A stretch of DNA of 64,000 nucleotides from assembly GCA_020283715.1 (NCBI GenBank), contig JAIQCW010000112.1, positions 1-64,000 on the forward strand, written 5' to 3'. A program made the position numbers and the translations under genes. Below the pieces are notes generated by a model. That model saw only the letters and a list, made by a program, of their open reading frames with translations. It made no database searches and was not told the DNA's origin. This DNA is from Cytauxzoon felis (lineage: Eukaryota; Apicomplexa; Aconoidasida; Piroplasmida; Theileriidae). Shown in pieces: positions 12,234 to 63,889 of this stretch (positions are counted from its first letter, which is position 1; the number at the start of each line of letters is the position of its first letter).

Positions 12234-15200
12234 TTACTGATTACATATCTTCCTCAATACATATTGTAATATACCACCATGAACATAATACTCACTCTAA
12301 ATACATCTTATAACAATAAATAATAAACAAACCTCTATTAATGTATCAATCCTACATTTTGTCTCAAATGTCAAACCAGTATCAGTCGATACCTTTATAA
12401 CCTCACCAGGCTTAATTCTTTCATTCAACTGTATCGTAAAACGTTCCTTACCTAAAGAAGAATGTTTATTGAAAGTCATTATACATGATGAACAATCCTT
12501 CTACACCTGAGGTCCGTCCTGCCGTCAGCTCTCCACCTGAGGTTACAACAAGTGTTCCACTCGCCGTGGAGGCTTCTTTTAATTACCTATCTCTAAAGAG
12601 TATAGCCACTCCCGGAGATCGTGGCGTATTATCCGAGACGATCTATGGGAGTCGAGGTGATGTAAATAAGAAGGCCTCCACGGCGAGTGGAATCATTAAT
12701 AGTACTGGACCTCGAGTGGAACCCGTAGCTGATCTCAGGGAAGCGGAGGGGGAAGTAAATAAGGAAGGCCTCCATGGCGAGTGGAAGAAAGGTTGTAACC
12801 TCAGGTGGAGAAATGGATGGTAATGTGGAAGAGAAACAAGAGTCTCATCGGATTGATAACATACCAGTAAGATTTAGTGAAGATGCATTTTGTCCGTTTA
12901 AAAATTGTAGAGGCAGTATGCCGCATCCTACAAGATTCGTCCTGTGTATCCTTTCGAATGATTCAGCAATTATAGCCTTGACACCAAGTAATGCAGGACC
13001 CCTATATATAGTTGTACATTATTAATCTATATTTCAACATACTTTGCAGCCCAATCTCTTGAACTTCCTGTACCATACTCTTTACCGGCTATGACAATCA
13101 AATTTGTATTATTCTCCTTGTATAGCTGAGATGCGTCAAACACACTCATTAGTTCACCTGTTGGATGAAATATGGTCTTAGGACCTTGATTTGGGCATAA
13201 TAAATTCGATAATCTAATATTTGCAAATGTACCCCTAGCCATAACCTCATCATTACCACGTCTTGCACCATAGGAATTGAAATCTTTTGGTGCTACATTC
13301 CTACTTGTCAGGTATAATGCTGCTGGTGATCCTTTAGCGATGTTACCAGCAGGTGATATATGATCAGTAGTTATACTATCACCAAGGAAGAGTAATACAG
13401 CTGCATCTTTGATGGATGCAAGTGGTTTAACAGATGTCAATTCCATATCTTTAAAGAATGGTGGATGATGTATGTATGTGGATTCTTTGTCCCAAGGATA
13501 CAATTCAGTCTTTGGAGCCACTAATGAACGCCATGTATCACTACCTTCAGTAATATTATTATAAACTTGACTAAATAACTCAGCCTTTACATGTTGAGCT
13601 TCGAATTTCGATACGTCACTCTTAGTAGGCATTAAATCTCTGAAGAAAACCGCTTTACCACTCTTGTCCACACCTAATGGTTCCGTAGCTAAATCTATAT
13701 CTACACGTCCCGCCAATGCATACGCTACCACCAATGGTGGTGATGCTAGGAAGTTGGCACGAGTATGAGGATGTACACGACCCTCAAAATTCCTATTACC
13801 AGACAACACAGATGCAACAACTAAAGAATTATCAGTTACACATTGAGATACCTCAGGATCTAATTCACCACTGTTACCTATACAAGTCATACATCCATAA
13901 CCAGCAATGTAAAATCCAAGCTTCTCCAATGGATCGATCAAACCACTCAACTCCAAATATTTTGTAACCTGTAAATAAAAGTAAGTATTAATAATTTAGC
14001 AAAGATATTATTAACATTCACCCGCAGCTGATCTCAGAAAGCGGAGGGAGAAGTAAAAGGAAGAAGCCTCCACGGCGAGTGGCAACGACAGGAATGTGAC
14101 CTCAAGTAAAACTGCGAGTGGAAGACAATGTTGGACCTACTGTATTGGTACTCACAGAACAACCATCCAAAGATAAAGGGAATTTGAACGGAAATTAATA
14201 GAATGTTGGTTCAACGTTGACTTACCGTTTTTGATCCGGGTGAGAGTGATGTTTTGATGTATGGCTTAACGGTTAGTCCGAGCTCTACAGCCTTTTTAGC
14301 TAACAGACCTGCCGCTAACATAACGCTTGGATTACTTGTGTTGGTGCATGATGTGATACTCGCAATTACAACCGAACCATGGTTGAGTTCATAATCAACA
14401 CCTTTAAATGTAAATTTGGATGGCTTATCCTTAACTTCAGCACCATAACCTTTGGTATCTTTAGATGTCAATAGTGTTGAAAAGACTTTCTTGACATTCT
14501 TAATTGGGATGTTGTCCTGTGGACGTTTTGGTCCGGCAATTGATGGCTCAAGTGTACTCAAATCCAATTTTACAAGTGACGAATACTTGATATTAGATTC
14601 TTTAACACCCGCATGCAAACAATTTTCCTTAGTATAAAGATCCAATAATTTAACCTTCTCTAAACCTCTATTTGTCTGCTTAAGATAATCCAATGTCACA
14701 TCATCAATAGGGAAAAAACCCATTGTAGCACCATATTCTGGGGCCATGTTAGCAATAGTTGCACGATCTGCTAATGTCAAATATTTAACACCATCACCAG
14801 TGAATTCTACAAATTTTCCAACAACGCCTGGACCGGATCTTAACAATGAGGTTATTGCCAACACAATATCGGTAGAAAATACGTTATCTGATGGTTTACC
14901 AACGAGTTCAAATCCAACAACTTCAGGTAATACCATAGATATAGGTAGACCCAACATTGTAGCTTCAGCTTCAATACCACCAACACCCCAACCAACAACA
15001 CCTAGGCCATTAATCATAGTAGTATGAGAATCTGTACCAACAACGGAATCAGGATATAAAAGTCCATCGCTATCAAAGAGTGATCGAGCCAAAAATTCTA
15101 AATTTACCTGAAATGCATATATAAATTTTGGTTATAATCAACGAACTTGATGTACTATACCAGATCCTGGGGGCACAATTAAAGTATTTTTAAATGCTTG

Positions 15201-16086
15201 TGCACCCCATTTAAGAAATCTAAAGCGCTCAGAGTTTCTATTCATCTCAGTCTCCTGATTTAAACGCAGAGCCTCAGAATTACGACTGAAATCAACCTGT
15301 ACGGAATGGTCAATGACCAAATCTACAGGTACTAAAGGATTGATAACTTTTGGATCTTTTCCTGATTTAGCTACATAATCACGCATAGCGGCCAAGTCCA
15401 CAATTGTAGGGACACCACTGTAACGATTTAACTATTAAATGAATTAAACTCACGTAAAATCCTGCAATAATACTCTTGCTGGTATAAAAGGAATCTCTGT
15501 CTGTATTTTAGAATTCTTACACCAACCCAAAATCTTCTCAACATCGTCCTCAGTCGTACTAATAAATTATGAATAATATAAATAGAAAATGGGCCATATG
15601 AGATTGTATTCAATACTAATAGACTTGTATTGTCATTTCCATTGTCTTGCAGACAGCTTCTCTGTTTACTTCCCCTTCCAGCTCCCGTGGATCGCTTCCA
15701 GGTACTCCACCTGATGTCCAATGACTATACTTCTGCCACGATCTCTGGGAGTGGCTATACTCTTTAGAGATAGGTAAATAAAAGAGCTGTCCGCAAGACC
15801 AACGGTGGAGGCGAGTGGAAAACCTCAGATATAAACGAGAGCATGTCATGACTTACCTATAACCGTCACAATTCCTGACAGAAGCTTCCAACAAAACTCT
15901 TATAGAATATGGTAATTCTAGTAATCTAGGGTCATTTAAATCCTTAAGTGCGTAGTATTGTTTGTTAGTTCCCTTTAGATTCTTTTTGAGCTTCTCGAAC
16001 GGGGAGTTCTTCAACGATGACATTTTACGAATCTGACCGAGCACAATATTATTAGCTTTAAAACCCAATGTATTTAACATTTCCAT
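12234..16086 (-). CDS. ACO: Aconitate hydratase (aconitase/IRP1 type)
   Basis: Interconverts citrate and isocitrate with a [4Fe-4S] cluster. The start is [20 protein letters not shown], possibly a mitochondrial presequence. Motifs in order: [15 protein letters not shown] and [37 protein letters not shown]; the first cluster ligand in [12 protein letters not shown]; the other two in [12 protein letters not shown]; the swivel domain with [14 protein letters not shown] and [15 protein letters not shown]. It ends [20 protein letters not shown], stop at 12234. This is the long IRP1-like class. Three of its introns hold interspersed palindromic elements (about 12490-12822, 14022-14105, 15648-15828); the others are short. 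The cluster requirement links it to the Fe-S machinery. Identity is certain; exon ends beside the repeats are approximate. Confidence 0.96.
12490..12822. repeat. Nested palindromic element in aconitase intron
   Basis: Full-length copy. Outer ends are CCACCTGAGGTTACAAC and GTTGTAACCTCAGGTGG. Inner arms are CCACTCGCCGTGGAGGC and GCCTCCACGGCGAGTGG. Between them lie module A (ending CCACTCCCGGAGATCGTGGC), a module E (GACGATCTATGGGAGTCGAGG) and module B (GATCTCAGGGAAGCGGAGG). The start of the copy also carries a second arm type, CTGCCGTCAGCTCT. Confidence 0.9.
14022..14105 (+). repeat. Half copy of the palindromic element, module B
   Basis: Decayed single half within an aconitase intron: CCGCAGCTGATCTCAGAAAG, then the arm GCCTCCACGGCGAGTGG. 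No left partner remains nearby, so it is probably an old remnant. Confidence 0.8.
15648..15828. repeat. Palindromic element in the first aconitase intron
   Basis: Left arm with GCAGACAGCTTCT, inverted module C (CCTTCCAGCTCCCGTGGATC), spacer, inverted-strand module A (GCCACGATCTCTGGGAGTGG), right arm GAGCTGTCCGCAAGACC. The two arms pair as GCAGACAGC/GCTGTCCGC. It lies between the first coding exon and the exon encoding [15 protein letters not shown]. Confidence 0.85.
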
Positions 16087-18556: not shown

Positions 18557-21190
18557 TTACAAAGTGGCCCGATCATTAAATGACAACAAGTCTTGGAAAA
18601 TTAAGATATTACTATGAAATGAAAATGAAATGAACGTAAATGAATATGAGATAAGTAATTTCTTCAATTGCTTCAGTTTTAAATATAAATCATCAATGTT
18701 ATCAATGTGATTCAGTTCATCTGGTATCCCTAGAACAGCCGAAATAACATCAGCTAATAGAGTATCTACTTTACATCTGTAATATAAAGGGCTCTTTGAG
18801 TCGACTTGTACAAATAATGCTTTAATGAGGTCCATTAAATAATCACGGCATAATTGATACATATTTTCTATACTTTCAGAATTCTGAATGTTCATAAAGT
18901 TGTCATCAATTTTGGACAATACTGATGAGTAGTAACTATTTAATGTATTGGAAAAATGTATCAGCAACAATAAAATAGGCATGTACCTCTTATCATGTCT
19001 AAAACCCAAAAATAAACGACTTAATGTACGCCTGAAACCATAAAATTTCTTCATGTGAAGAAAAATACAAGAGAATCTGAAATATAAATGTGAATTGAAG
19101 AAACCAAAAACCGATGTCCAATCCATCTCTCATAGTCCTCTTGCAGAGAGCTCTTCCTTTTACTTCCCCCTTCGCTTCCCTGAGATCAGCTACGGGTTCC
19201 GCCTGAGGTCCAATCACTAATTTCACTAACTTCATTTTACCTCGAAAACTTGAAGGAAATTCCTCAATTTCTGGGGAAACTGAGAAAGATATCTGAGTGA
19301 CTATTGAATGAATCATAAATATCAATGCATCATTCAAAAGGAATTTGATGATTGTATTGGGTTTAATAAACTTCACTTGATTCCAATTTATATTCATTGA
19401 GTTATCCTCCCAAACATAGATTCCATCACTTTAGTCTTATCTCGGTGAAATAAGGTTATAACCTCAGGCGGAACCCGTAGCTGATCTCAGGGAAGCGGAG
19501 GGGGAAATAAAAGGAAGAGCTGTCTGCAAGACGAAGAAAGGTGGAGAAGGAATGGATTGAACCTCAGTTGGAAGAGCTGACAGCAGGACGATGAGATTTG
19601 GTACTATCATTTAACATACAGTTGCATGATATCATCTGTAAGAATTGTATTTGAGATGATTGTATCTTTATTGAATTGAATCTAAAGGTATATATGTGTT
19701 TATAATTGACTTTAACATACTTTAATATCTCCATATTTATTCTTTATGATATCAAAAGATGATAACAATTTCATGAGTTTATGTTTTGAAATCTATAAAT
19801 TAATATTAATCCATATTAATCTTGTACTTACATCATTAAAAACTGATGAGGAGTTATATATGTTCCATGTATTTATTATATTATAGAGGATATAAGTGAT
19901 GTGATTCTGGGAATATATATCGGTTTCATTGATATAATTAATTAAAGCATCTAATAATTTATCAAATTTAAAAAAAATTAAATGATTAAATATCATAAGA
20001 TAATAATATAAATCATTATTAATTATTTCTTTAATTTTTGTAAGCTTTTTATTATTTTCTAAATTTAATTGTTTATCCAATTCCATTAGTAATAATATTT
20101 CAGTACCTTCAGTATTATAATCACATATAGTATTTAAATTATGACTTGTAAGATAATTTAATGATGTATTTATAGATATATTAGTAAATGATAAACAATT
20201 AATTAAATCAGATGAATTTTTTATATTAAACATTAAACTTGATGATATTATAGATGATGATTCAATTATAGAATCTTTTGTACCTATTAATGTACAATAT
20301 AAAAAATATTTCCATAATTTCATCAATGGAATATCCCTAGTGATCTCTGCATCTCTTGAAAATATAATTAAATGTTCAATCATTAAAAAATTACATTTTG
20401 TTTTATCATTTGTATCTAATTTATTTAAAAATAATTCAATAAAATTAACAAGGCTATTAATAATTTTCATAAATGGTTCTAATATTATATAAAGACTCAA
20501 TAAATTAAGATGATCTCTAGAAGATGTTACAAGGGTAAATAATCTAATATTCTCATTATATAGCTCCATAATAGGTGTAATAATTGTATCATCAACATAA
20601 ACACTAGATATTGAATCTTCTGTATTATTCCATATACTAACTATATTTCTATTAATATCGAACATAATCCTTCTCCAATCATTTAATAATGATTTCAATC
20701 CATCATAAAATGTAGGCATATGATTATCAAATCCCCAATCAAGGGAAATTTTTGATAATATAGGCCTAGATCTACTACGACGAGCATCATTAGATGTTAG
20801 ATCATCAGGTACATGAATCAATAATAAACGTAAACTTTTTGGTAATTTTCCAACCTTATTTTGATTGTTATCTATAGAATTCTGTAATTTATACAACAAA
20901 TGTAATGATGTGCCGAATTTAACAAAGTTGTACAGCAATGCATCTACAGCAATATGAGAAACATTAGGTAACGTTATAAACTGAGCAATTTTAAATATAT
21001 TTGGTACATATCCTATATTAAATTTTAAATCTTTATGCGATATTTGAACAAACAAAGGTCTAGAATCATATCCATTAATCAACGATAACACCTTATTTAT
21101 GATCCAAACTTCATTTATATTGTCATCAACAGCCGATATAGAACAAGCATTATCACTGCCAAATTTTTGACTTTTATAAGATTCTATCAT
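18557..21190 (-). CDS. Gamma-tubulin complex component (Spc97/Spc98, GCP family)
   Basis: GCP proteins nucleate microtubules with gamma-tubulin at spindle poles. The first exon (21190-19840) encodes about 450 residues beginning MIESYKSQKFGSD and rich in helices. Short exons then give ISKHKLMKLLSSFDIIKNKY and IQFNKDTIISNTILTDDIMQ. A roughly 540-nt intron follows (about 19082-19619) filled by an interspersed element. The last exon carries the C-terminal GCP signature, CIFLHMKKFYGFRRTLSRLF ... ILLLLIHFSNTLNSYYSS ... MYQLCRDYLMDLIKALF. It stops at 18557. The match is to the domain pattern rather than to strong motifs, and the paralogue (GCP2-6) cannot be named. The YOS1 stop is only 16 bases upstream of this start. 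Confidence 0.7.
19134..19590. repeat. Palindromic element with 230-nt spacer family inside GCP intron
   Basis: Inverted module B (CTTCCCTGAGATCAGCTACG) at 19163, spacer family S at about 19216-19448 (hallmark TTTCTGGGGAAACT), then direct module B at 19486 and the arm AGAGCTGTCTGCAAGACG. The outer end reads TAACCTCAGGCGGAACCCG. The same layout, with the same spacer family, recurs near 33.1, 40.0 and 52.4 kb. Confidence 0.88.
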
Positions 21191-24276: not shown

Positions 24277-24500
24277 AGGAAAATCCGACGAACGAAGTGA
24301 GGAGGGAAGAATTTTCTTCGAGGAAGGAATTTTCTTCTCTTGTAGACAGATCTCCACTCGAGGTTACAACCACCGTTGGTCTTGCAGACAGCTCTTCCAA
24401 TTACCTATCTCTAAAGAGTAAAGCCACTCCCAGAGATCGTGGCGATGATGAAGAGAGATCTGAACGTAGTGATGAAGGTGGTAATGTCTACTAATGATGA
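24277..24500 (+). repeat. Repeat mosaic downstream of GluRS
   Basis: Two repeat kinds join directly after the GluRS stop. First comes a short tandem family with units like TCCGACGAACGAAGTGAGG and GAACGTAGTGATGAAGG, also present in the next gene's coding region (25028-25150). Then a half palindromic element: arm CTTGCAGACAGCTCTTCC and module A ending CCACTCCCAGAGATCGTGGC (24345-24443). Confidence 0.8.
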
Positions 24501-24891: not shown

Positions 24892-27673
24892 ATGACTAAT
24901 GATGATTCTAAAATCCCATCTAATCTCTGTATATTAGACTTTAATAGACTGAACGTCACCAATCCAAAAAAGGGATTATTTACCAAACTCTGCACTCTTG
25001 TCCGACGCAAACACTCTAACAATCTTGAAGGACGATCCGACGAAGGAGGAGGACCTTCTGAACGTAGTGATGAAGGAAGTGACGACGAAGGAGGTGCTGT
25101 TGTAAACGAACATAGTGAGGGAAGACGGTCCGAACTTAGTGATGAGAGAAGTCAGGATAGTAATGATGTAGGAAGATGTACAAACTACAATGATGTAGGA
25201 AGATGTACAAACCTCAATGATGTAGGAAGATGTACAAACCTCAATGATGTAGGAAGATGTACAAACTACAATGATGTAGGAAGATGTACAAACTACAATG
25301 ATGATAGTAGTAGTAATAATAATAATAACCCTCAATACATCAGCAGTAACCCTCTAGATAGTAACACCCTTCAGGAAACAATACAGAGACGTATAAATAA
25401 TGAAATGATAACTACAAATGATTCTAATCAATCAGATACAATATTAAGTATATGTAATTCAAATACACAAATGATGGATGATAATGTTATAGAATCAGCA
25501 TTTATATTATTTATAGAAAATACAATAAAATTATGTAATAAAGCTATAATAGAAAATAGATATATATTAACAGATAAATTATTATATAATTTATTTCATA
25601 AATTAAATGAAATTTATGGTAATATATTAAATGAATCATGTAAAGGTGAAATAAATTTTCATAATATAAATAATAATAATAAACATCCATTATTTAATAA
25701 TATTAATGATAATATAATAAATAATATACCAGATATAATAAAAATTAATATAAATAATATTATTAATAATAATTATTATAAAATAGCTATTATTGAAAAA
25801 TTATTAATATGTGATCTATTAGATAAATTTAATATGATACATATAAAAAATTTATGTATTGATTTTCATCAACCTATACTTAATAATTTATGGTTTAATT
25901 CATTAGAATCTATTATTACAAATAATATATCTAATGATAATCTTAATACAAATAATATATCTAATGATAATCTTAATAATACAAATAATATATCCTATTC
26001 TAGATATAATTCATTCAATTCCAATCTTGTACAACGTATCAATCAAATTAGATTAAATAATCTACCTTCTTTACCTATCATTAATAATAAAAATTATAAA
26101 CTATCCATCATACAAACATTCAATTATCTCAAAACAACCACCAAACGATTAAAAAATACCAAAACTATCGTACTCAAACAACACTTTAAAAAAATCAAAA
26201 TCAAAACCGCAGATGGATGGATCAAAGAACCATGTATGTTTACACATATAATCTAATAAATGAAAATGGAAAATGTTACAATTAAAGTTTAGTCGTCACT
26301 AGTCCAACTGAGGTTACAACCACTGTTGCCACTAGCCGTGGTGGCCTCTTCTATTTACCTCCCCCTCCGCTTCCCTGAGATCAGCTACGGGTGTTACACT
26401 TGAGGTCTAATCCTCATTTCCTCCTTTACCCTCATCTTCAGTATTTTCTTTTGCGTTATTCCAGTTCCTATAATAGAAATATGGGGATCCTTGTGAGGTA
26501 ATTTTGTATTATGGGGATTATCATCTTGATTGTGGGGTATATTCTTTTTATGAGGTTTTTTATCCCCAGAAAACACCTTACCCCACCTGAGGTTACAATA
26601 CTACTCTCCTTCCCACTCGCCGTGGAGGCTCTCCTAATTACTTATCTCTAAAGAGTAGAGCCACTCCCAGAGATTGTGGTGATGATGAAGGTGGAGATGA
26701 AATAAAGAGTAGTACTGGACCTCAAGTGGAGACCTCAAGTGGAATACCTGGAAGCGATCTACGGGAGCTGGAAGGGGAAGTAAATAGAGAACGCCTCCAC
26801 GGCGAGTGGGAAGAGGTGAAGATAGTGATAGAAGTACAGAGATGGATCAGCTAGTGGCGATTAATTTCATTATATATATTATAGATCGTTCATTGGAGAT
26901 ATATTATCGTGTGGAGTTGAATGGATCGATATCGATAAAGGTGCGTGGAAAGTTGGAGTGTGAGACATTGAAGGTGTTGTGTATATTGAATGAGTTGGAT
27001 TTATCTACAGAATGGGTACCATTTTTGAAGAATGTAGTACAGATATATAGTTATAGTACAACTAGTAAATTATTTAAACAGACATATGAATATCCTGTAG
27101 TTGGTGTAAAGGATACTATAGTATATGGTACATTTATGAATGTATTAGATGAAGCGAATTGTTTAATTATAGGATGTAAGAATCCACCAGATGATGAAGA
27201 TGATGTTAAACAAATAGTAAATGTATTAAAAGAAGGTGGTATATTAAATACTGATAATATTGTTAGATATGATAAAGATAATGAATTATGTTATTTATGG
27301 GATCAAGTTATAGAAAAATGTCCAAAAAAAAACTAAACAAAGAGCAGCAGATTTATGTTTTTTAATTTTCCCCATTGGTGAAAATCATACATTAATGGAA
27401 TTATATGCTAATATTTTACCAGAAGTACGATTAGTACCCATGAAAATCATCACATATATTATCAAAAAAGTCATACTTGGAATGTTCAAACGTATCGCCA
27501 ATATCTCAAAAATCTTCGATGATACAATCTATGCATCCAAAATGAACGATGATGACGAATTCTATAAAAATATGAAACTCGTACTCGAACATCATAGAAA
27601 TAACGTAACCCATAATAAATATAACAGTAGCATCAGCATCGCCACCTATGCACCCAGCACAGCTGATCGATAA
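24892..27673 (+). CDS. Large low-complexity protein with C-terminal START-like region
   Basis: The N-terminal 450 residues start MTNDDSKIPSNLCILDF. They contain repeats rich in SDEG/SER, five copies of a 9-residue unit NDVGRCTN(Y/L) at 25162-25296, and long Asn/Ile-rich stretches. At GAACCAT|GTATGT (about 26234) I infer a roughly 630-nt intron holding two element clusters, ending at an AG at about 26884. The junction reads DGWIKEPYRSLEIYYRVELN and keeps phase. The C-terminal part (KLECETLKVLCILNELDLST, EWVPFLKNVVQIYSYSTTSK) resembles START-type lipid-binding domains. The frame breaks at an A9 run (27324-27332): one frame ends KCPKKN, and the other continues TKQRAADLCFLIFPIGENHT to a stop at 27673. 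The START call is tentative, the joining of halves fairly good. Confidence 0.55.
25162..25296 (+). repeat. Coding 27-nt tandem repeat, five copies
   Basis: Five near-identical copies of a 27-nt unit encode NDVGRCTN followed by Tyr or Leu. The near identity at DNA level suggests recent expansion by slippage or unequal exchange. Each copy adds one Cys. Confidence 0.9.
26298..26818. repeat. Two palindromic-element clusters in intron
   Basis: 26298-26408: an outer end ACTGAGGTTACAACCACTG, an arm CCACTAGCCGTGGTGGCC and inverted module B. 26580-26818: outer end CCACCTGAGGTTACAA, arm CCACTCGCCGTGGAGGC, module A (variant AGAGATTGTGG), module C (GAAGCGATCTACGGGAGCTG) and arm GCCTCCACGGCGAGTGG. The 170 nt between the clusters is unrelated to them. 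Confidence 0.85.
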
Positions 27674-41079: not shown

Positions 41080-43292
<2,213 letters not shown>

Positions 43293-47644: not shown

Positions 47645-50637
47645 TTATATTAAATCCGAATGATCCAGACCCGTATAATGTTTCAATTCCTAAGTTAATA
47701 ATAATTAAAACATATTTTTTTTACAATACCTTGAAGGAATCTACAAATAAAACAGCATCCCAAACCTCCTTAGGAACGAATGCAGATATCAATATAAGGT
47801 AACCCCTCAATGTCCAACCACATTTATGAAAGTAAATCGCACCAAAATTACGAGATCTCTTAACACCCAGTACACGACATAAATCACGCAATAAAGTAAG
47901 CAAAGCCGATGATACAATGAATGAGTAATCTGAAATGTGTAGCTAATTTGTACATCCGAGATCCAATCCAACTTTCTTCGTCCTGCCGTCAGCTCTTCCA
48001 ATTACTTCCCCCTCCGCTTCCCTGAGATCAGCTACGGGTTCCACTCGAGGTCACATCCTCACCACTTCCATCTTCGCCACGATCTCTGGGAGTGGCTATA
48101 CCGTTTAGGGGGAGGTAATTGGGAGAGCCCTCTGCAAGAGAACGCGAGGTGGATTGGACCTCAGGTGGAGTGGATTGGGTTTTGGTTGTAGAATGATTAG
48201 TTGACTATATGTCCTTGTATTGTATAAAACTTACCTAGGTTTAGTATGACTAATGTGATTTTATGTTGGATGAATGGGTTGATGATACCGAGTATGTATG
48301 ATAGAGAATATTCAGATTGGTCAGCGAATTCATAGCATTTAGCATCGATTGCGATAACAGGTCGTTTAAATTTATCGGAATTACACCATTTTATAAATCT
48401 ACTTGATTCTAATCGTGAATAAATAGGTAATTTTGTAATAGAATATGATAATTTAAGATAATAACCATAATCTCCATCATCATCTGTAACCTTACGATCA
48501 GCACCTATACGATAACTCTCACCCAAATTAAAACTCTTCTCCTTTACTACATCCTCCTTAAAACCTGCCGATATACGAATATTCCTACTCTCATCCACCA
48601 ATTCACCAATCTCATTACCAGACGTCAATAAATCACCACTCAAATACTAAAAATTAATGAAGAATTGAACTTAGTAATTCTGTCCAATCCAACTTTCTTC
48701 GTCCTGCAGACAGCTTCTCTATTTATTTCCCCTTCCAGCTCCCGTAGATCGCTTCCAGGTATTCCACTTGAGGTGTCCACCTGAGGTCCAATAACTATAC
48801 TTCCGCCACGATCTCTGGGAGTGGCTTTACTCTTTAGAGATAGGTAATTAGGAGAGCTGACGGCAGGATAGACCTCAGGTGGAACGGCTAGTGGAAGAAG
48901 AGTTGGACAAAGTTCCCTGCGAAGTTTATTATTGTTTGGACATACTTGTTCATATGGTGTTCTTGGAAAGTATTTGCGTATGATTTTATAGTGATTATCA
49001 TTATTAATATTGCCGATAAAGAATATTTTGGAGATTTTATTATAGACTTCTGGTATTTCTAACCATCTCCTTATTGTTCTAAAGAGTGTATGTAGATATT
49101 CATCTGTAGGATATGAAACATCCTTTTCTACAGAGAGTGGATATGCTATTGTATCTATACCCGCGTCAATTGCTAATTTCAATACTTCACGTATAGCCAT
49201 ATTAAGAATATTACTTGATGCGTCATGATATTTAGGAGAATATCTCGAACTCATTGCAAATATTACATATTCACTCTTTATATTATAAGTACGCATCATC
49301 AATGCCTCTCCACATCTTAATCTCAAGACTTGATCATAATTCAAATGACGTCCACTCTCTATACAAATGTTAAAATATATTTTTTTTATAATAAACTAAC
49401 GAATCTGTACCGTCTCAGCAATCTCAGATTTGTATTTGTTAGTCTCATCCAAAAATATTGCTATAGCACCCACATCTAAACCTAAGATATTACAATCGCC
49501 AATGTAAATCTTATCATTAATATCAGCGCTAATCGTAAACTTTGGAACAGAATTTGCTGAAATAAAAATGAATAGAAGAAATAAAACAACCGCTCAATTC
49601 AAAGTCCATTATACATCTTCTACTAAACCTTGTCTTTTACTAGGAGTTGCACCTGAGGTTTTCCCACTAGCCGTGGTGGCTTCTCTATTTACTTCCCCCT
49701 CCGCTTCCCTGAGATCAGCTACGGGTGTTAGCTTGGAAGATCATTGGTTAAGAAATATCGTCGTTGAAGGTACCAATATTGAAATTAATTCTACCAGAAT
49801 CAGTTCCATCCTCTAAAAATGGTGCATCTACACCTTTAGTAACACCGCCACGGGCGGTTGTATCTTGGGGACAATGTACGGGTTTTGTATATGAACCTGT
49901 ATGGTTAATACTATCTGCTGTACCCGAGTTGTAGGGCCTAAAGTTCATTATCATATTTTAGACAGCTCTTACTAATAGTTATAACAGCATCCTGATGACT
50001 ACCAGTAAAACCATCATAATCATGTCTATTATTAGCAGAATTGGCTAGTTCATAATCCTCAGTGCTAAGACCTGTATTACCGGGAAAGTCATTATCTTGT
50101 AATAGATTGTGGCTAGTTCCACCTGGGTTATAGTCTGTTACAGTGGTATCAGCAGAACCAACCTTCTTCCGTATCTTATAAGTACAATTTTGTAGTTTTG
50201 TAACGGTATATGTTGAAGGAGCGTGATTTCTGAAATCTGGTTCATGATGTCCAGGAGCTAATTTCTTTTGTACTTCTTCATTAGTTGAATATACTTCATC
50301 ACCCGTAGCTGATCTCAGGGAAGCGGAGGGGGAAGTAAATAGAGAAGCTGTCTGCAGGACAACCTCAGGTGGAACGGCTAGTGGAATAGATGTATAATGG
50401 ACCTCGGGTGGAGGGCGAGTGAATTGGGATGTTAGACATACATAGTGCGATTTCATCATCAACGAATTTAAAAGTGTTCCAGCTTGGTATAGAGTCTTGG
50501 TTCACTTTGGTTATTGTAACAACGGGTGGTTCATCATCTTGGTCATTTCCATCGGACGTTACGTCTAATATTTGTCCAAACTCCAATGCCAACCAACTAA
50601 CAGTATCGAGTAAACTAGAATCTAAATGTATAGTCAT
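47645..50637 (-). CDS. GDAP2-like protein: macro domain plus CRAL-TRIO domain
   Basis: The macro domain (49560-48950) has KIYIGDCNILGLDVGAIAIF, LNYDQVLRLRCGEALMMRTY, YVIFAMSSRYSPKYHDASSN and DEYLHTLFRTIRRWLEIPEV. Those are the same blocks as in animal GDAP2. The Sec14/CRAL-TRIO domain (48640-47645) has RPVIAIDAKCYEF, LLTLLRDLCRVLGVKRSRN and IYFHKCGWTLRGYLILISAF, and ends ELKHYTGLDHSDLI at 47645. Two introns between these parts carry palindromic elements (about 48660-48945 and 47950-48180). Upstream, PYNSGTADSINHTGS ... APFLEDGTDSGRINFNIGTF (49750-49950) and exons to MTIHLDSSLLDTVSWL at 50637 may be the N-terminus. They do not join in frame with a standard splice, so the 5' part could be a separate gene. 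Confidence 0.72.
47950..48180. repeat. Palindromic element in GDAP2-like intron
   Basis: Arm CCTGCCGTCAGCTCTTCC, inverted module B, spacer, inverted-strand module A with an intermediate middle (ACCGTTTAGGGGGAGG), arm GAGCCCTCTGCAAGAG, right end GGATTGGACCTCAGGTGG. The module A middle is halfway between the two main A variants. Confidence 0.85.
48695..48905. repeat. Palindromic element between macro and CRAL-TRIO exons
   Basis: Arm CCTGCAGACAGCTTCTC, inverted module C, double outer-end motifs (CCACTTGAGG, CCACCTGAGG), inverted-strand module A, arm AGAGCTGACGGCAGGA, right end GACCTCAGGTGGAACGGC. It is read without stop on the gene's strand, but the flanking GT/AG and domain alignment favour removal by splicing. 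Confidence 0.85.
49650..49735 (-). repeat. Half palindromic element, module B
   Basis: CACCTGAGG end, arm CCACTAGCCGTGGTGGC and inverted module B (CTTCCCTGAGATCAGCTACG). In an inferred intron of the GDAP2-like gene. Confidence 0.8.
50298..50430 (+). repeat. Half palindromic element, module B
   Basis: CCGTAGCTGATCTCAGGGAA, arm GAAGCTGTCTGCAGGAC, then CCTCAGGTGGAACGGCTAGTG. The inferred splice acceptor of the exon YSTNEEVQKKLAPG lies directly at its edge (about 50295). Confidence 0.8.
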
Positions 50638-52187: not shown

Positions 52188-52680
52188 ACCCGAAGTCCAA
52201 TCAACCTCTCTTTGTCTTGCAGACAGTTTCTCCACTTGAGGTCTTTCCACTAGGCGTGGCGCCTTCTCTATTTACTTCCCCCTCAAGCTCCCGTGGATCG
52301 CTCTCGGGTTTCACCTGAGGTCCAATCACTGAGTTCATTTTAACCTCCAAAATTTGAAGCAAATCCTGAATTTCTGGGGAAATTCATGAAGATTGTGGAA
52401 TGAATAATGGATGAATTATATATCTCAATACTTCATTGAAGAGGGTTTTGATGATTGTATTGAGTTTACTGAAGCATCACTTCATTCCAATTTATATCCA
52501 TTGAAACATCCTTACAAACATGAATATCGTCACTTTATTCATATCTCGTCGAGATTGGATTTTTTACCCGTAGCTGATCTCAGGGAAGCGGAGGGGGAAC
52601 TAATTAGAAGAGCTGACGGCAGGACGACCTCAGGTGGAAGTGGAAAGAGAGGTGGACTGGACCTCGATTGGAGTGCTATC
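52188..52680. repeat. Palindromic element with spacer S, intergenic
   Basis: Arms CTTGCAGACAGTTTCTCC and CCACTAGGCGTGGCGCC, inverted module D (CAAGCTCCCGTGGATCGCTC), spacer family S at 52330-52558, direct module B, arm GAAGAGCTGACGGCAGGACG, and right end CTGGACCTCGATTGG. It lies between the convergent RRF and RPA43-like genes. Confidence 0.88.
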
Positions 52681-53625: not shown

Positions 53626-54949
53626 ATGAAATATTTCAATTTTTATTTTTCTTTGTAATATGTCTAACTTTTGTAAAAGGTGATGAAGATAACGAAGACA
53701 CAAATAAAGACAGCTCCGTCGATGTCGTTCATACACCTGCTGATGCACATGTCAGATATCACGTAAATATCTGGATCAATGGAGATTCAAACGATGATTC
53801 AGGTATATTTATACTAATTTAACCATACTTATAACTCTTATGAGTCAATCATCACCTTCTTCACCTACTTGAAGTCCAATCATTATCATCTACTCTTCCA
53901 CCTGAGGTTACAATCACTACCTTCACCTCTCTTTGTCTTGCAGACAGCTCTTCTAATTACCTATCTCTAAAGAGTAAAGCCACTCCCGGAGATCGTGGCG
54001 ATGATGTAGGTGGCGATAGAAGTAGAGTTAAGATGTAACCTCAAGTGGAGAACCCGTAGCTGATCTCAGGGAAGCGGAGGGGGAGATAAATAGGAGAGCT
54101 GCCACGGCGAGTGGAAAGTAGAGTATGACTGTAACCTCAGGTGGAGTGTACAACATTTAATTATTCTAATTTTTCTATTATAGAATGGTTATTATTTGGT
54201 CGTTATATAATATCATCGTTTGATTTATTTAGTATTGGTTCAGAGGAATATAATCCACGTGTTCAATTGGGAATAGTTAGGAGATTATTAAAGGTATGTT
54301 ATAATATTATGTTTAAATTATTGATATTTTAGGATGGTTCATCTTATATAAAGTTTAAATTATGTGATCGTAATGATCATCAACGTATTAATTGTTCAGA
54401 ATTAAATCTGAGTAGAGTATGTAAGATTGAAATATTGTTTATATTATTATATAGGATCGTAGTAAATTATTATTTCAGACTATATGTTCATTAAATATAC
54501 ATTGTGGTTATAGATTTGCTCCATATTCATTATCATTAATATGTGCTAAGGTATATTAAAGTATATTATATGATTGGATTTATATTTATAATAATTTTTA
54601 TAGCCATATGAGGATAATAGTTTCTGGGACAATTTCAAATTTAATAAGCCTACAGCTCCAAATTTATATTCAAGGCTTATTGTAAAATTATTTATACCAG
54701 TAAAGGGTAAGGTTGTACCTATATTTCAATCAGATAAAAAAAGTAAGTTTCTTATTGATAATAAATGTATATAATTGTATAGGTAAATTACCTTTGAAGG
54801 AAGATCCGGTAATTTTAAAGCCATTAATACCAAAATCTGTATGTAAAATGATATAATTAAATTATTTATTATTATTATTATAGATTTATAGTTTTGGTGT
54901 ATTTGTACTTTTTTTCTTATATTCTAAGAGATCATTATTTGGGTTCTAA
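53626..54949 (+). CDS. Type I membrane protein of the secretory pathway
   Basis: The sequence LFFFVICLTFVKGDEDNED is a good signal peptide but lacks an in-frame ATG. The ATG at 53626 (MKYFNF) is one base out of frame across a T5 run (53640-53644), so a single-base indel is likely. After the exon ending WINGDSNDDS an intron of about 360 nt holds a palindromic element. Then follow EWLLFGRYIISSFDLFSIGS, ICSLNIHCGYRFAPYSLSLI, RLIVKLFIPVKGKVVPIFQS and a C-terminal membrane helix IYSFGVFVLFFLYSKRS. Five more short introns. A luminal beta domain plus tail helix could fit an ER complex subunit (EMC10-like is one idea), but I cannot show it. Stop at 54949, 82 bases before NOG2. Confidence 0.6.
53870..54150. 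repeat. Palindromic element in intron
   Basis: Outer end CCACCTGAGGTTACAATCAC, arm CTTGCAGACAGCTCTTCT, module A, module B, arm GAGCTGCCACGGCGAGTGG, right end CTGTAACCTCAGGTGG. The left and right arms are of different type, so the copy is a recombinant or decayed one. Confidence 0.88.
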
Positions 54950-55031: not shown

Positions 55032-57593
55032 ATGAAGAGTGTTAAAAAAAATCGTATAATGAAGAGATCAAAATCGCAGCCATTTCCGGCATTTAGGTCA
55101 TCAACGGCGATAACAAATCCATATCGTCCAGCTCCTAAAGGTCTTAAAGAAGGTAAATTTGATGTAAATTTTATATTATTATGATTGATATTTAGGCCAA
55201 TATAGAGATAAAGAGACGATAAAGCGTTTAAATATGTACAAGTCAAAGCCGAATATAAAAAAAATGAAAGAACAGCCTTTAGAACCTGTTAGAATTAATC
55301 CAGATCGACGTTGGTTTGGTAATACTCGTGTATTAACTCAAGATCAGATGATAAAATTTAGGAATGAGCTTAGTGAACATATTACAAATCCAAGAAGGTT
55401 TGTATTAATTGTAATTATATTTTAATATATAGTCATGTTATAAAGAGGAGTAAATTACCAATGTCATTGTTAAAGGATGATGATATTAAGGTTGATAATT
55501 CTAATATATTGACTATACAATCTATGGAGGATACTTTTGGTAAAAAGAGTACTAGAAAACGTCCGAAATTAAATGTATCTACATTAGAAGAGATGGTTGA
55601 GGATGTTAATAATCGTAATTATGATGCTAGTCATGATAAATCTTTAATAGATTATAATGATAATGATGATGTAGAGATCTCAGATGTGATATTTAAAAAG
55701 GGTACCTCTAAACGTATTTGGGCGGTAATTTTTTTTTGAACTTTCAACAACGATATTATAGGAATTATATAAAGTTATAGATTGTTCTGATGTAATAATA
55801 CAAGTTATAGATGCACGTGATCCAATGGGTACTAGATGTATAAGGCTAGAGAATTATATTAGACGATATAAACAGAGTAAAGTATTAATATTACTTATGA
55901 ATAAATGTGATTTAATACCATCTTGGGTTACAACTGCATGGATTAAACATTTAAATAGGGATCTTACTACTGTTGCATTTCATGCATCTGTTAAGAATCC
56001 ATTTGGTAAAAATACTCTTATACAATTACTCAAGTATGTCTTTATTTAAAAAAATACCCCATTTTATCTATTTATAGGCAATATTCACAATTATTTAAGG
56101 ATAAAAAACATTTTAGTGTAGGGTTTATCGGGTACCCTAATGTTGGTAAAAGCTCTGTTATCAACACCCTTAGAGGTGATAAATGCTGTAAAACCGCACC
56201 TATACCTGGTTTGTTTTAATGGAAGTTGTTTTATCATCTTCTATTTTTTAATTTCCCCCATTTTCCTATCTTTACCCCATTATTCCTACTTTCCCCCCTA
56301 CCTTCCCCTCACTTCAATTCACTACCTTCCCATCCCATCACTTCTATAGGTGAGACTCGTGTATGGCAGTATGTATGTTTGACAAAGAGGATTCATTTGA
56401 TTGATTGTCCGGGTGTAACACCATATGAAGATGGTGATGATGCAGATAAGGTAAGTTGATGAATATTAAATAAACTATACAAACCCTCAGGTACTAAAGG
56501 GAGCTATACGTGTAGAGAGGATACCTGATCCAGAGAATTATATCGATAGGCTATTAGAATTAATAGAGCGGTGAGTAGAAGAATGTATAGATTTTTTTAA
56601 AAAAATCCTCTACCTCTATAGAAATGTATTGATACAACGCTATAGTATACCAAATGATTTTACAAATGAAAATTTTTTAAATCATGTAGCTATAAGATTT
56701 GGGAAATTGAAACGCGGTAAATTACCCAACATTTCAACAGCTGCTAGAATCGGTAAATTTAAAATTTCCACGACCCCATTGAGGAAAAAAACTTCTTTAG
56801 TCTTATATGATTTTCAAAGGGGAAGATTACCATTTTATACAAACCCACCAGAAAATGATGAAAAATTAAATCCAATCAATGAAATCAAAGAGGTTAAATA
56901 TATAAAAGTTTTTGTTATTCAATTATTTTATAGCATCTCGAAGAAATCGTCAAACTCAATACACTCGAAATACAACCAATCGATGAAAATACAATCAATG
57001 ACGCATGGAATGATAATGATACCAATAACCACTCTATTAACTCACCTGAAGTCCAATCCACCTCGCGTTCTCCTGCAGAGAGCTCTTCTAATTACCTATC
57101 TCTAAAGAGTATAGCCACTCCCGGAGATCGTGGCGAAGTTAATGAGGAAGAACAAAGAACTTCAACCCGTAAGAACGAAGATAATCAACCCCTAAGAACA
57201 GGAATTCTACCCGGAGGAACAGAGAATGTCAACCCGGAAGAACATGATATAGTTAATGGACCTCGAGTGGAACCCGTAGCTGATCTCAGGGAAGCGGAGG
57301 GGGAGATAAATAGAGGAGGCTGTCTGCAAGACAAAGAGAAGGTGGAGTCGAAAAGTGGAAGAGTATATAATAATGATTGGACCTCAAGTGGAAAACCTGG
57401 AAGCGATCTACGGGAGCTGGAAGGGGAGATAAATAGAGAAGCTCCATGCAATGGCAAAGATGGACCTCGGGTGGATGCTGTCTGCAGTACGACGAAAGAT
57501 GGTGATTGGACTTCAGGTGTAGATGTTGAAGATTCTATGTATCGTTATCCCCAATTGTGTAGGGGTGTTGATTATGATAATTTTTTAATTTAG
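55032..57593 (+). CDS. NOG2: Nucleolar GTP-binding protein 2 (NOG2/GNL2) with element-derived tail
   Basis: Circularly permuted GTPase needed for 60S subunit assembly. N-terminus [16 protein letters not shown] and [16 protein letters not shown] fit the family, as does [20 protein letters not shown]. The G motifs come in permuted order: MNKCDLIP (G4), then [14 protein letters not shown] (G1) and [11 protein letters not shown] (G3). Eight short introns. The last exon (from 56938) leaves family sequence at about [10 protein letters not shown]. It then reads straight through a palindromic element, in frame for about 150 codons ([36 protein letters not shown]). It ends [11 protein letters not shown] at 57593. 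A splice removing the element is possible but none is obvious. Confidence 0.92.
57045..57500 (+). repeat. Exonic palindromic element in NOG2 tail
   Basis: Order on the coding strand: arm CCTGCAGAGAGCTCTTC, module A (57087-57135), PEE-type units related to ACCCGGAAGAAC (57140-57250), module B at 57276, arm GGCTGTCTGCAAGACAAAG, module C at 57396, arm GAAGCTCCATGC. It is open in the NOG2 frame from end to end. Confidence 0.9.
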
Positions 57594-59461: not shown

Positions 59462-59590
59462 TCTTCTCCACCTGAGGTTACAACCACTGTTCCACTCGCC
59501 GTGGAGGCTTCTTCCAATTATCTATCTCTAAAGAGTAGGGCCACTCCCAGAGATCGTGGCAGAGGTATCCACTTGAGGTCCCATCATTAT
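59462..59590 (+). repeat. Half palindromic element, module A
   Basis: CCACCTGAGGTTACAACCAC, arm CCACTCGCCGTGGAGGC, module A ending CCACTCCCAGAGATCGTGGC, then CCACTTGAGGTCCCATCA. It is followed at once by repeat family V. Confidence 0.85.
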
Positions 59591-59594
59591 CCTC

Positions 59595-59944: not shown

Positions 59945-60105
59945 AGACCTCAGGTGGAGACCTCATGTGGAACCCGCAGCTGATCTCAGGGAAGCGGAGG
60001 GGGATGTAATTGGAAGAGCTGTCTGCAAGACCAACGGTGGAGGCGAGTGGAAGAGAGTTGGAGGTAACCTCAGGTGGAGTGGATTGTACTTCTAGTGGAT
60101 ATATA
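59945..60105 (+). repeat. Half palindromic element, module B
   Basis: GACCTCAGGTGG end, CCGCAGCTGATCTCAGGGAA, arm GAGCTGTCTGCAAGACCAAC followed directly by a partial second arm GTGGAGGCGAGTGG, then GTAACCTCAGGTGG. Confidence 0.85.
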
Positions 60106-60143: not shown

Positions 60144-62326
60144 TTATTGTTTGATATCGATATCATTTTGATGATAGTTCCATTCGGATGCGAGTTGATT
60201 GATGATGGAGGTTGGTGTTTCTTCACAGAGTACTTGAAGTAAGAGTATCCATCTTTTAACACTTTCTTGTGCATCAGCACTCCAATAATAAGTGATTTTA
60301 TTATGTGTTGTGATACTAAAGACAAATTGTCGATTCATATATGATCCTACCCAATTAATTCTAGAATTTTTAAGATTAATAACATCTTTAGGTTTAATAT
60401 CATTTTTATAATTAAAATAATATAAATTAACACCACATATTATAATATAACGTAAATTCCAATTCCAAGATGAAAATCCTTTACCTAATTTTAATAAATA
60501 CCCTATAACATTTATAAAATAAAAATATTGATGATATAATTACCTGTAAATGTGATTGGTATATCATTTGATTTAACTTCTTTACCTAATGATAATAATA
60601 ATAAATTATTATTATATATTTAAAATACCCAATAATATTTGTTTAGCACGTGTAGTCTTTACAGTTAAATCATCATCTTTATTAGTCTTAACATCAGATA
60701 CAGAATCTATACTCAATGAACCTTCTATAGATTCATATAATAATAAATCATCTAAACTCTCTAATGCATCCTTAAACTCATCATCGTCATCATCAACATT
60801 CGGAACAATAACAGGTCCAGATAACTCCAATGATGTCGGAGTCACATCATCACCCGTTACCTTTACACCAACCACCACATCTTCCACTAATGACCTCGCA
60901 CTTGAGGTAATACTCGAAGTCCTTTCCCTGTCTTGCGGAAGGTTCTCTACCTGAGGTCCAGTACTATTAATCATTCCACTCGCCATTCCATCTGAGGTCG
61001 TCTTGCAGACAGCTTCTCCACTTAAGGTTACATTCCTGCCGTCAGCTTCTCTATTTAGTTGTCCCTCCGCTTCCCTGAGATCAGCTACGGGTTCCACTTG
61101 AGGTCTAGTACTATTCCTCATTCCATCTACACCTTCACCACGATCTCCGGGAGTGGCATTACCGTTCACGGGGAGTGAATTGGAAGAGGCCTCCACGGCG
61201 AGTGGAACAGAGTTGGATTGGACCTCAAGTGTAGAGGCTCCACGCCTGGTGGGATCAGATGTTGTTGTAACCTCAGGTGGAGAAGTTATTGGTATGGATG
61301 TATGTCCTTCTGTTGGTGATGTATTGATTGTATTAGTTTTATATGGTGGTATGACATCATCATATTGTTCTTTTCTGGCGATATTATATGTTTCATAGAA
61401 TTTGGCATTGAGTTTATCATAGCAGTTGATTTCGGATTCTCTGAGATAATCGAAGCTTAGATGATACCATTGATCAATCCAGCACATTGCGCTTGATAAA
61501 TAGAGTACAAGTTTTTCTTGTAGGATATTTATAACATAATTTTCAATTTTGGATGCTAATAGTCCAAAGTATGGCAAATTTAATCGTATTAATTTATATG
61601 TAATTATACCCGATGATTGTTTATCATTAAACCAATCATTATTTAATGGAAATTGTGGATGATTATCAGAATGAAATTTAGTAACATCAAATATAGGATC
61701 ATACATCTATTGAAATATTAAAATTAAGATAAGAATTCTAAACATACTTTATATTTATTGAACTTTGTAATATCTATAAATATTACAGTTCTCTTTTTCA
61801 ATTCATTAGGTGTTAATTCCATTACATTATCATTAATATCTAATCCACTATGATTTTCTGTCTGTATACTAAACTCTATAGATGATAAAGCTTCATTATA
61901 ATATTTTGTCAATGATGATGGATACATATTCCAACTATATAATAAATGAAATTATTATATGAATAAATATAAACTGAAGTTAATTAACATACGATTTCTC
62001 TGTAAGTATAGTAAGTTTATCACCTAATATAGATCTAAGCCATGTAGGTAAATTCCTATAATGAAAATAAATATCATGAGTATATAAAACATACTTGGCT
62101 AAATGAAAACGTTTTTCTGTATATCGTCCTACTTTATCACCATCATAATAATCTTCATTTTTAAATACCTCGAAACCATTACCACTCTCCATCTCTTTAA
62201 GACTAGCTTCTATTACAAGGAATATACAACATCTTTGATAATCCTAAATAATATTAAATAACAATAAATAATATAACTTACGTCCAATGTAATGGGTAAA
62301 GGTACCCTGAACTCAACAATTTTCAT
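60144..62326 (-). CDS. Phosphatidylinositol transfer protein fused to a PH domain
   Basis: The class I PITP domain starts MKIVEFRVPLPITLDDYQRC at 62326. It continues with GNGFEVFKNEDYYDGDKVG, YTEKRFHLAKY, FNDKQSSGIITYKLIRLNLP and GLLASKIENYVINILQEKLV, ending at MCWIDQWYHLSFDYLRESE. A linker of about 230 residues contains a palindromic element read in frame ([33 protein letters not shown]) and an acidic stretch. Two short introns lead to a PH domain: GYLLKLGKGFSSWNWNLRYI, NLYYFNYKNDIKPKDVINL and ITYYWSADAQESVKRWILLL. Stop at 60144. PITPs move PI and PC between membranes; the PH domain may target it to phosphoinositides. The PITP and PH calls are firm. Confidence 0.88.
60895..61290 (-). repeat. 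Exonic palindromic element in PITP-PH linker
   Basis: Read on the coding strand: end CCACCTGAGGTTACAACAAC, arm CCACTCGCCGTGGAGGCC, module A variant 2 (CCCCGTGAACGGTAATGCC), spacer, module B, arm GAAGCTGACGGCAGGAATG, then a second set of partial arms (GCTGTCTGCAAGACG). The motif GAATGATTAATAGTACTGG, with one change, also occurs in the element at 12490-12822. Confidence 0.9.
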
Positions 62327-63005: not shown

Positions 63006-63889
63006 ATGGCGGATCAGTTGAGTGAAGAACAAATTGCCGAGTTTAAAGAGGCATTTTCACTATTCGATAAAGACGGTGATGGAAGTTTGTATATACACAC
63101 TATACTCTAGACATATTTATGTACCCCTCTTATAATTATATACCTATAGGTATAACTACTAAGGAACTTGGTACGATTATGCGTTCACTTGGACAAAATC
63201 CCACCGAAGCCGAGTTACAAGACATGATCAATGAAATCGACAGCAATGGCTGTGGTTTGTAACTATTATTTCAACTAATCCTCACTATATTCCATTCAGG
63301 AACCATCGACTTTCCAGAATTTCTAATCCTCATGGCCAGAAAGATGAAGGAAGGTGACACCGAAGAAGAACTCATACAAGCATTCAAAGTCTTCGACCGA
63401 GATGGAAATGGTTAGTTTACTCGAATTAATGTGATAAGTGAAGTGTTGTATACTCCACCTGAGGTTACAACTCTCCTTTCCACTCGCCGTGGCAGCTCTC
63501 CTATTTAGCTCCCCCTCCGCTTCCCTGAGATCAGCTACGGGTTCCACTCGAGGTCCTATCATCTACACATTCATCATCGCCACAATCTCTGGGAGTGGCT
63601 ATACTCTTTAGAGATGGTAATTGGAAGAAGCCTCCACGGCGAGTGGAAAGGAGTGTTGTAACCTCAGGTGGAGTATTGTCTATAAGAAAAAGAATTGGCA
63701 AATCGTGTAGTAACTTTATCACGATACTTTTTAGGTTTTATAAGTGCGCAAGAATTGCGTCATATAATGACTAATTTGGGTGAGAAGTTGACGAATGAGG
63801 AGGTGGATGAGATGTTGCGTGAGGCGGATGTTGATGGCGATGGAAGGATCAACTATGAGGAGTTTGTGAAATTAATGGTATCAAAATGA
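63006..63889 (+). CDS. CAM: Calmodulin
   Basis: Four exons give the canonical 149-residue protein: [20 protein letters not shown] to FVKLMVSK. Introns cut three of the EF-hand loops (after DKDGDGS, DSNGCG and DRDGNG). EF1 loop DKDGDGSITTKE, EF3 DRDGNGFISAQE and EF4 [12 protein letters not shown] are normal. EF2 reads DSNGCGTIDFPE, with Asn at loop position 3 and Cys at position 5, where calmodulins usually have Asp and Asn/Asp. The third intron (63411-63734, 324 nt) contains a palindromic element; the other two are about 45-65 nt. Identity is certain. Confidence 0.98.
63450..63675. repeat. Palindromic element in calmodulin intron 3
   Basis: Arms of about 43 bases pair with one mismatch (63450-63492 against 63633-63675). 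Each arm contains ATACTCCACCTGAGG, a private CTCCTTT and CCACTCGCCGTGG. Between them are inverted module B and inverted-strand module A. The pairing extends into AGTAT flanking the usual CCACCTGAGG end. Confidence 0.9.

Follow-up and report, generated by a model that had tools for sequence, protein, structure and literature searches.

A dispersed family of nested palindromes in the Cytauxzoon felis genome that is also found in frame within coding sequences

What are the nested palindromes that recur along a 64,000-nucleotide stretch of the genome of the piroplasm Cytauxzoon felis, how many of them does this genome hold, and what happens when they lie within genes? The stretch, hereafter called the window, comprises positions 1 to 64,000 of contig JAIQCW010000112.1 (C65:1-64000 in our numbering) in assembly GCA_020283715.1, which has 8.62 Mb in 181 contigs. 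An earlier inspection of the letters alone (the sequence-only reading) had proposed that they form a dense, mobile fold-back family or a repeat driven by gene conversion. In the available part of a survey that covered 64 apicomplexan genomes, class II elements are reported as absent, as are transposable elements in C. felis; candidate miniature inverted-repeat transposable elements (MITEs) were discarded (PMC9141347). We consider it probable, at about 0.72, that the palindromes are a selfish, non-autonomous fold-back DNA family that also enters exons in frame and works like the Rickettsia palindromic elements (RPEs). The interpretation offered by the sequence-only reading is thereby partly supported; the property that it missed, placement within exons in a fixed frame, is the most important one.

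The family is large. When up to one mismatch is allowed, the window has 53 matches to the end box CCACCTGAGGT, where 0.33 would be expected, and 15 to the core motif GGAGATCGTGGC, where 0.01 would be expected. In the whole assembly, where the reversed pattern served as the control, exact CCACCTGAGGT has 1755 + 1753 = 3508 matches (control 0 + 1), and a core B piece of 20 nt, searched at a tolerance of up to three mismatches, has 1360 + 1374 = 2734 (control 0 + 0). In other words, the genome-wide search that had been suggested returns thousands of matches, against at most one in the controls. For the finer analysis we used a sample of 261 kb, picked for convenience, which consists of the window and parts of contigs C4, C8, C3, C6, and C2. 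It contains 120 clusters, one per 2.2 kb on average, and these cover about 13% of the sequence when cluster spans take in spacers and inter-module gaps of up to 290 nt. Scaled up from this sample, the nuclear genome would have roughly 4000 element sites, and a coverage of about 13% of the sampled sequence would change the reported picture of C. felis as free of transposable elements. No Rfam family matched at gathering scores in the 52 kb that were scanned, and a protein database search with the 617-residue frame at 33859-35712 scored none of its 7995 candidates.

How are the elements built? In the module strings used below, E is an end box, A, B, C, and D are cores, and X, Y, and Z are hairpin-like arms. 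The module scan of the window finds 17 A, 19 B, 10 C, and 2 D cores, grouped into 25 clusters; 24 contain three modules or more. The earlier counts were about 17 A, 20 B, 6 C, and 4 D in about 26 clusters, and a separate module family E was not identified in the rescan. As had been proposed, all modules have one backbone in common, GATCT..GGGA..GTAAATAG, judged by eye on the consensus strings. The outward nested architecture also holds throughout the sample: exactly one orientation switch is present in 91 of the 120 clusters, and 90 of these 91 point outward from one centre; the rest comprise 22 one-sided clusters and 7 with several switches. The single type of centre described before is incomplete: beside a short centre, in which a B or C half faces an A half, there is a long one with a conserved spacer of about 250 bp. 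Two-sided short-centre elements in the window measure about 160-310 bp. Two window copies are predicted to fold as RNA far better than shuffled sequences: positions 39802-40280, part of a long-centre element at 39748-40404, with z = -9.9, and one short-centre element with z = -7.1. A tandem satellite was also considered; no head-to-tail array was encountered, the clusters being dispersed with modules that point outward, and the low-complexity satellite that had been named as one possible refutation of the earlier proposal is excluded. The idea that elements decay from the centre outward, like a nested onion, was rejected as well, since end boxes of rank 1 and of higher rank show no difference (p 0.92), nor do the arms (p 0.39); there is a small rise in decay at rank 3 and above and nothing else. 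Beyond the outermost end box, an arm-like stretch is found in 21% of 152 flanks, against 2.2% of shuffles and 0.7% at positions 150 nt away, so that some copies do have decayed outer layers.

The types of the left and right arms are independent of each other: they match in 27 of 73 elements, where 25.4 are expected, and this agreement at chance level means that there is no compensatory pairing of left and right. The point bears on the suggestion that the palindromes are functional cis-elements under selection, such as signals for transcription end or splicing, or insulators. Free assortment of the arms argues against such a role, and so does the placement of the copies, which lie in introns, in intergenic regions, and in exons alike, including those of essential and housekeeping genes; we regard a cis-acting function as very improbable. 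Where coding segments were predicted on both sides of a non-coding cluster (89 cases), the two were divergent in 17, compared with 630 of 1593 random non-coding bases.

Are these discrete units that have been dispersed? We compared the 1.8-kb surroundings of A-centred copies and took the best local match for each pair; because the A scan also accepts D cores, some pairs of elements enter the count twice. At 12.6 and 27.9 kb of the window lie two copies that are 94.2% identical over 208 bp, and the match lies inside the element and not in its flanks. The copy near 48.1 kb is 94.4% identical over 196 bp to a copy at locus L046. Since the copy at L046 is within an open frame and the one near 48.1 kb is not scored as coding, one subfamily occurs in both coding and non-coding settings. 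Among distant pairs with a hit, 19 of 3084 (some of them double-counted) reach 90% identity over 150 nt. The majority are older: identity is 72-83% in the longest inter-cluster matches, of which 25 were listed, and in just 6 of 6138 matches does it reach 95% over 80 nt. It was also asked whether nearby copies are more alike; the distributions do not differ (p 0.59), with a modest excess of nearby copies among the very similar pairs of at least 180 bits (6 of 119, against 123 of 8009). With copies up to 94% identical that match within the element and not its flanks, and two window copies predicted to fold better than shuffles, the description as a dispersed, non-autonomous fold-back family is supported.

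Nearly all copies inside coding frames follow one rule. For each cluster we asked whether it lay in a stop-free frame of 100 codons or more with a margin of 60 nt on both sides, and coding context was predicted by a simple codon-usage Viterbi segmentation, which misses short exons and makes the context counts rough. Twenty of the 120 clusters lie in such stop-free frames, 17 of the 20 have coding-like flanks, and 16 of these 17 hold cores. In 15 of the 16, every A is read antisense in phase 0, every B and D sense in phase 0, and every C sense in phase 2. Fifteen further loci, picked from the top protein matches in long frames of a genome-wide peptide search and therefore a test of phase agreement and not of frequency, contain 17 frames in which all 75 cores keep the same phases. 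A less strict criterion, which does not require one open frame, puts 76 of the 306 core hits within predicted coding sequence, 72 of them in the common orientation (recounted by hand). One candidate, C4:37295-37671, was dropped from the coding count and stays among the 120 clusters: by eye it is of the FG-repeat nucleoporin type, with chance end-box hits, and this glycine/phenylalanine repeat protein is a warning for simple motif scans.

The window contains elements that conform to the rule and one that does not. At 35086..35405 (plus strand) an element lies in frame within a 631-codon open frame at 33817-35709, its A antisense in phase 0 and its C sense in phase 2; at 57042..57520 (plus strand) another lies in a 219-codon open frame at 56934-57590; and at 60898..61280 (minus strand) a third lies in a 364-codon frame, the N-terminal part of which matches the end of a phosphatidylinositol transfer protein domain. 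The exception among the 16 coding clusters, at 50119..50411 (minus strand), lies in the open frame 49941-50501 with its B antisense in phase 2. In addition, the A and C cores of 26206..26809 are in predicted coding sequence in the common orientation.

Why should the orientation be fixed? The consensus of A has stops in all three sense frames and is open in one antisense frame; B, C, and D each have one open sense frame in their consensus, and in the long spacer all six frames are closed. The orientation in genes is thus fixed because the consensus has one stop-free way of being read. Outside coding frames, 79 clusters measure 150 nt or more, of which 10 have at least one frame that runs through the whole cluster without a stop, and the distance from A to B or C falls into the three phases 26, 16, and 19 times (61 in all), whereas in coding frames it is in phase in 16 of 16, a contrast that is partly circular. 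In the genome-wide peptide search, the 150 scored matches of 3391 candidates comprised 49 in frames of at least 300 residues, 5 in frames of 150-299, and 96 in shorter ones. Scaling from 16 coding clusters in the 261-kb convenience sample suggests about 500 exonic insertions in the genome.

Some smaller features of the coding copies may be recorded here. Short repeats of ACCCGGAAGAACAGG and GGGGATAAAAAACACCATAAT occur in the centres of coding elements, where 9 of 10 and 7 of 9 matches, respectively, are in predicted coding sequence; they are found at window positions 35180-35320 and about 57130-57250, at C4:4058-4279, and at C6:1273-1871, and they look like further stop-free modules placed at the centre. 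An A-half variant, AATTCACTCCCCGTAAACGG, reads NSLPVNG in place of the common NYLSLKS. It occurs in 7 coding and 8 other places, including the window elements at 35086-35405 and 60898-61280, compared with 9 and 64 for the common form, and coding copies seem to favour it.

Compared with their orthologues, conserved host proteins have about 130-220 extra residues where the elements lie. The RNA polymerase III subunit RPC1 matches the human chain at query residues 1-337 and again at 477-513, where the human chain passes from 626 to 631; 139 residues stand where the human chain has 4, and the element occupies approximately residues 343-461. Pfam finds RNA_pol_Rpb1_3 in two stretches in this frame. 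In the clathrin heavy chain, with elements at residues 460-568 and 777-887, the query runs from 446 to 625 while the reference chain runs from 1162 to 1189 (178 residues in place of 26), and again from 778 to 913 while the chain loses nothing (134 extra residues). In isoleucyl-tRNA synthetase, 234 residues (query 251 to 486) stand where the chain has 13 (106 to 120), and the modules lie between residues 271 and 376 and between 434 and 470. Three elements are found in one frame with a match to the GPI transamidase subunit PIG-T/Gpi16. Further hosts identified with Pfam include MIF4G, LCCL, and WD40 proteins, HEAT/EF3-like and Rav1-like proteins, and another class I synthetase; in three sets of host frames, 4 of 10, 3 of 8, and 5 of 9 frames had no Pfam match. 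A helicase was considered as a further insertion case and was not used, its alignment being weak.

The clathrin gene also carries a second, unrelated insert at L043:600-909 (residues about 191-302), where the chain in the PDB has a 3-residue gap. Lying in frame, it consists of a purine-rich half and, after it, an imperfect reverse complement of that half, and its 18-nt core has 3 matches with up to three mismatches in the 261-kb sample; it may be another coding fold-back family.

Not every copy within a gene is exonic. The aconitase gene, on the minus strand, has exons at 14211-15092 and 13027-13956, which match Pfam Aconitase at positions 117-391 and 394-463, and the intron between them contains a decayed element at 14018..14125, recognised by repeat coverage. 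The apparent cluster at 14066-14082 turns out to be a single arm match inside this longer repeat. Could the elements be introners, which bring splice sites and create introns? By eye, GTAAATAG and GTAATTAG look like splice donors and the reverse strand like an acceptor, and this one copy does occupy an intron. The splice sites of the aconitase intron, GGTAAGT and TTTACAG (by eye), fall outside the element, however, so that the copy sits within a host intron; exonic copies keep their frame open, and cf76, a gene with two elements, is described in the accessible part of its report as a single exon (PMC3748084). We find an introner origin scarcely credible.

The gene of the surface antigen cf76 is another host. 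The PCR primers given for it in the same report match contig C114 exactly at 6472 and 8756, and the frame from 6540, the cf76 coordinate listed in the available part of PMC6310948, reads the first 480 residues of one cf76 protein with 0 mismatches. The gene holds two elements (loci L033 and L034), and a protein database search with the clathrin insert returned the two cf76 entries, of 706 and 723 residues, and nothing else at E 0.001. The gene was amplified from cDNA (PMC3748084), which together with the single exon supports transcription through both elements. We infer that the inserts are translated, with cDNA support in one case, that of cf76.

The two cf76 proteins differ in 61 alignment columns, all within residues 119-298: the first element (179-272) accounts for 43, the stretch directly before it for 13, and the one directly after it for 5, and there are none in 1-118 or 299-723. 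Immune selection on the antigen could be an alternative source of this local divergence. Two alleles that differ around one element, together with the independent arms, support a reshuffling of modules. The strongest antibody target is the C-terminal region, and across eleven samples its sole reported variation is a 30-bp sequence present twice or once (PMC3748084, in the part available). Both proteins carry a doubled EADGRNVTSGG, which is the arm and end box of the second element; we infer that this is the published repeat, although its length of 33 bp departs from the published 30 bp. Judged by position, the second element (8301-8509 or more) is contained in the C-terminal piece 8035-8711. 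The strongest target region of a vaccine antigen, according to that study, contains one insert and, should the more far-reaching interpretation given below be true, about one third of the immunogenic C-terminal region of cf76 would be a selfish insert common to many other proteins.

The antigen raises the question of whether the insert is a selected protein module, for example an antigenic repeat, spread because its peptide is useful. The peptide does recur, with the long frames of the peptide search in its favour, and cf76 is an antigen. On the other hand, the majority of copies do not code: 104 of the 120 clusters are outside coding frames, as are 227 of the 306 core hits with respect to predicted coding sequence, and the hosts include RPC1, clathrin, and isoleucyl-tRNA synthetase. 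On a protein array, 38 of 673 open reading frames were seroreactive (PMC6310948), and if element-bearing proteins were on the array, the shared epitope does not make every one of them reactive. A later study, as far as its available part goes, found cf76 less immunogenic than another antigen (PMC10058880). Peptide-level selection inside the modules was looked for among coding copies and gave no clear sign: synonymous changes make up 15 of 55 in B, 19 of 65 in A, and 4 of 9 in C, where fractions of 0.253, 0.308, and 0.334 are expected. Without a clear synonymous excess the peptides look tolerated rather than selected, and selection for the peptide is a highly unlikely origin of the family. Compared with the rest of the same frames, the inserts are rich in disorder-promoting residues (0.565 against 0.382) and poor in aromatic ones (0.024 against 0.095), with other elements in multi-element frames counted as host residues.

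The selfish fold-back reading also has to face several observations, besides these synonymous counts, that weigh against it. Most copies differ by 10-25%, which weighs on movement at the present day. No target-site duplication was found in 54 clusters, with 36 offset combinations and 7 lengths, the best z being 1.7 over 252 settings. Nor was a mobilising enzyme found among three families: DDE_3 and Y1_Tnp have no match in the genome, and the RVT_1 matches are telomerase, all lying in one frame with a telomerase RNA-binding domain (C56:73693-74436, locus L031); other recombinases were outside the search. The autonomous partner foreseen by the sequence-only reading is thus missing from these families. 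Another orientation is seen in four of the 76 core hits that fall within predicted coding sequence. There is some circularity in the fixed frame, since a copy must be open before it can count as coding, and the finding that 0 of the 79 non-coding clusters are open together with 60-nt flanks follows largely from the definition of the groups. The RPC1 alignment is weak in its second half (10 bits), and only a short stretch matches PIG-T. Occupied and empty sites were compared at the protein level only, and no empty DNA site was seen.

A rival reading is a classical MITE, in which the end boxes would be the terminal inverted repeats and the DNA transposase would be elsewhere or lost. Inverted end boxes, a high copy number, the fold-back shape, and matches confined to the element all fit such a family. 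Against it stand the lack of a target-site duplication, the absence of matches to DDE_3 and Y1_Tnp, the two transposase families searched, and the lack of class II traces in the 64-genome survey; we therefore think a classical MITE unlikely. As for a SINE or other retroposon, no common tail was visible by eye at the element ends.

For the preferred selfish fold-back family, the following course of events may be proposed. The element would spread as a DNA unit by host or foreign machinery, and would land in intergenic DNA as well as in introns and exons. An exonic copy would survive mainly when the A half is read antisense and the B, C, or D half sense, each in its single open frame, so that the insert adds a hydrophilic peptide of about 65-200 residues and translation is not stopped. 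Later recombination between copies, at the end boxes and the GTAAATAG joint, would swap arms and cores. The odds seem to us about even that the family, as a eukaryotic equivalent of the known coding palindromes, has added new, mostly disordered peptides to several hundred proteins of this one parasite, RNA polymerase III, clathrin, and a tRNA synthetase among them, and is still being reshuffled between natural isolates, ongoing reshuffling being suggested by the two cf76 alleles.

What known systems resemble this family? The RPEs, and palindromes of Wolbachia and Methanocaldococcus, are described in the available parts of two reports as short and inserted in frame in unrelated, often housekeeping, genes, to which they add peptides (PMC10969869, PMC2996958). 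The C. felis family is like the RPEs in being palindromic (about 150 bp in RPEs, about 160-310 bp in short-centre elements), in lying in frame in unrelated genes, and in keeping frame and peptide across sites. It is unlike them in being eukaryotic and nuclear, in having thousands and not tens of copies, in being modular with exchangeable cores and arms, and in being present in a spliceosomal intron as well. The likeness is one of working, compared by description and not by sequence, and we do not claim membership. PARCEL (palindromic amphipathic repeat coding element) is also palindromic DNA that codes for protein, known from some eukaryotes too, and consists of tandem 25-residue repeats that form a protein domain (PMC2996958), whereas the C. 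felis inserts are separate and dispersed in unrelated genes. With MITEs and fold-back transposons the family shares non-autonomy, inverted ends, dispersal, and high copy number, differing from MITEs in the absence of a target-site duplication and of a source transposase among the families searched. The GC clusters and double-hairpin elements of fungal mitochondria are GC-rich palindromic mobile modules in an AT-rich genome; the C. felis family, unlike these, is nuclear, longer, and read through in exons.

Judged by titles and abstracts, the top-listed open-licence papers in PMC include no recognisable report of such elements in C. felis or other piroplasms. To our knowledge, and as far as this literature search goes, this would be the first eukaryotic nuclear case of palindromes in thousands that also enter exons in frame. 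The top motifs in the 300 nt upstream of genes in Theileria parva and T. annulata are quite different, as far as the available part of the report goes (PMC2612703), which hints, if weakly, that the family does not extend to these species. The proposal that selfish palindromes build new protein segments becomes directly testable here in conserved, well-understood proteins, and annotation of C. felis should treat element segments as inserts and not as conserved domains.

The remaining elements of the window come from the module scan. They begin at about 12490, as had been noted: before 12,400 there are just two stray end-box matches, and positions 1-12490 hold no element, against the sample average for cluster density. 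The first, at 12503..12808, is a short-centre element (E< Y< E< X< a< A< D> X> E> B> X> E>) that is not scored in a coding frame. Other short-centre elements are at 27767..28047 (with core D, and included in the pair comparison), 30493..30785 (double end boxes), 47978..48168 (the relative of the L046 copy), 53898..54144, and 63455..63671 (E< X< B< E< A> X> E>, with the second part of A unscored). Long-centre elements are at 32939..33367, 39748..40404 (stacked C units, also examined by folding), and 52212..52637. The region 26206..26809 consists of two adjoining elements, a half (E X B E) and a short-centre one (E X a A E E C X), and 35931..36402 is an element with an extra C unit. Half elements are those at 46809..47211 (an A half, E> A> a> Y> E>, with a distant single end box), 49649..49725 (E< X< B<), 59468..59579 (an A half), and 59947..60077 (a B half with a double end box). 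Further clusters lie at 15642..15801, 19136..19591, 24354..24443, 42172..42401, and 48699..48882.

Three observations concern the assembly and the window apart from the palindromes. A piroplasm 18S primer site has no match with up to two mismatches in the assembly, from which the rRNA genes may be missing. The FAINT domain has at least 145 matches in the assembly (the best 150 of 224 candidates were scored), which indicates the Theileria group. In the element-free part of the window, positions 522-1343 hold a frame with an Ephrin_rec_like domain, a type present in apicomplexan surface proteins.

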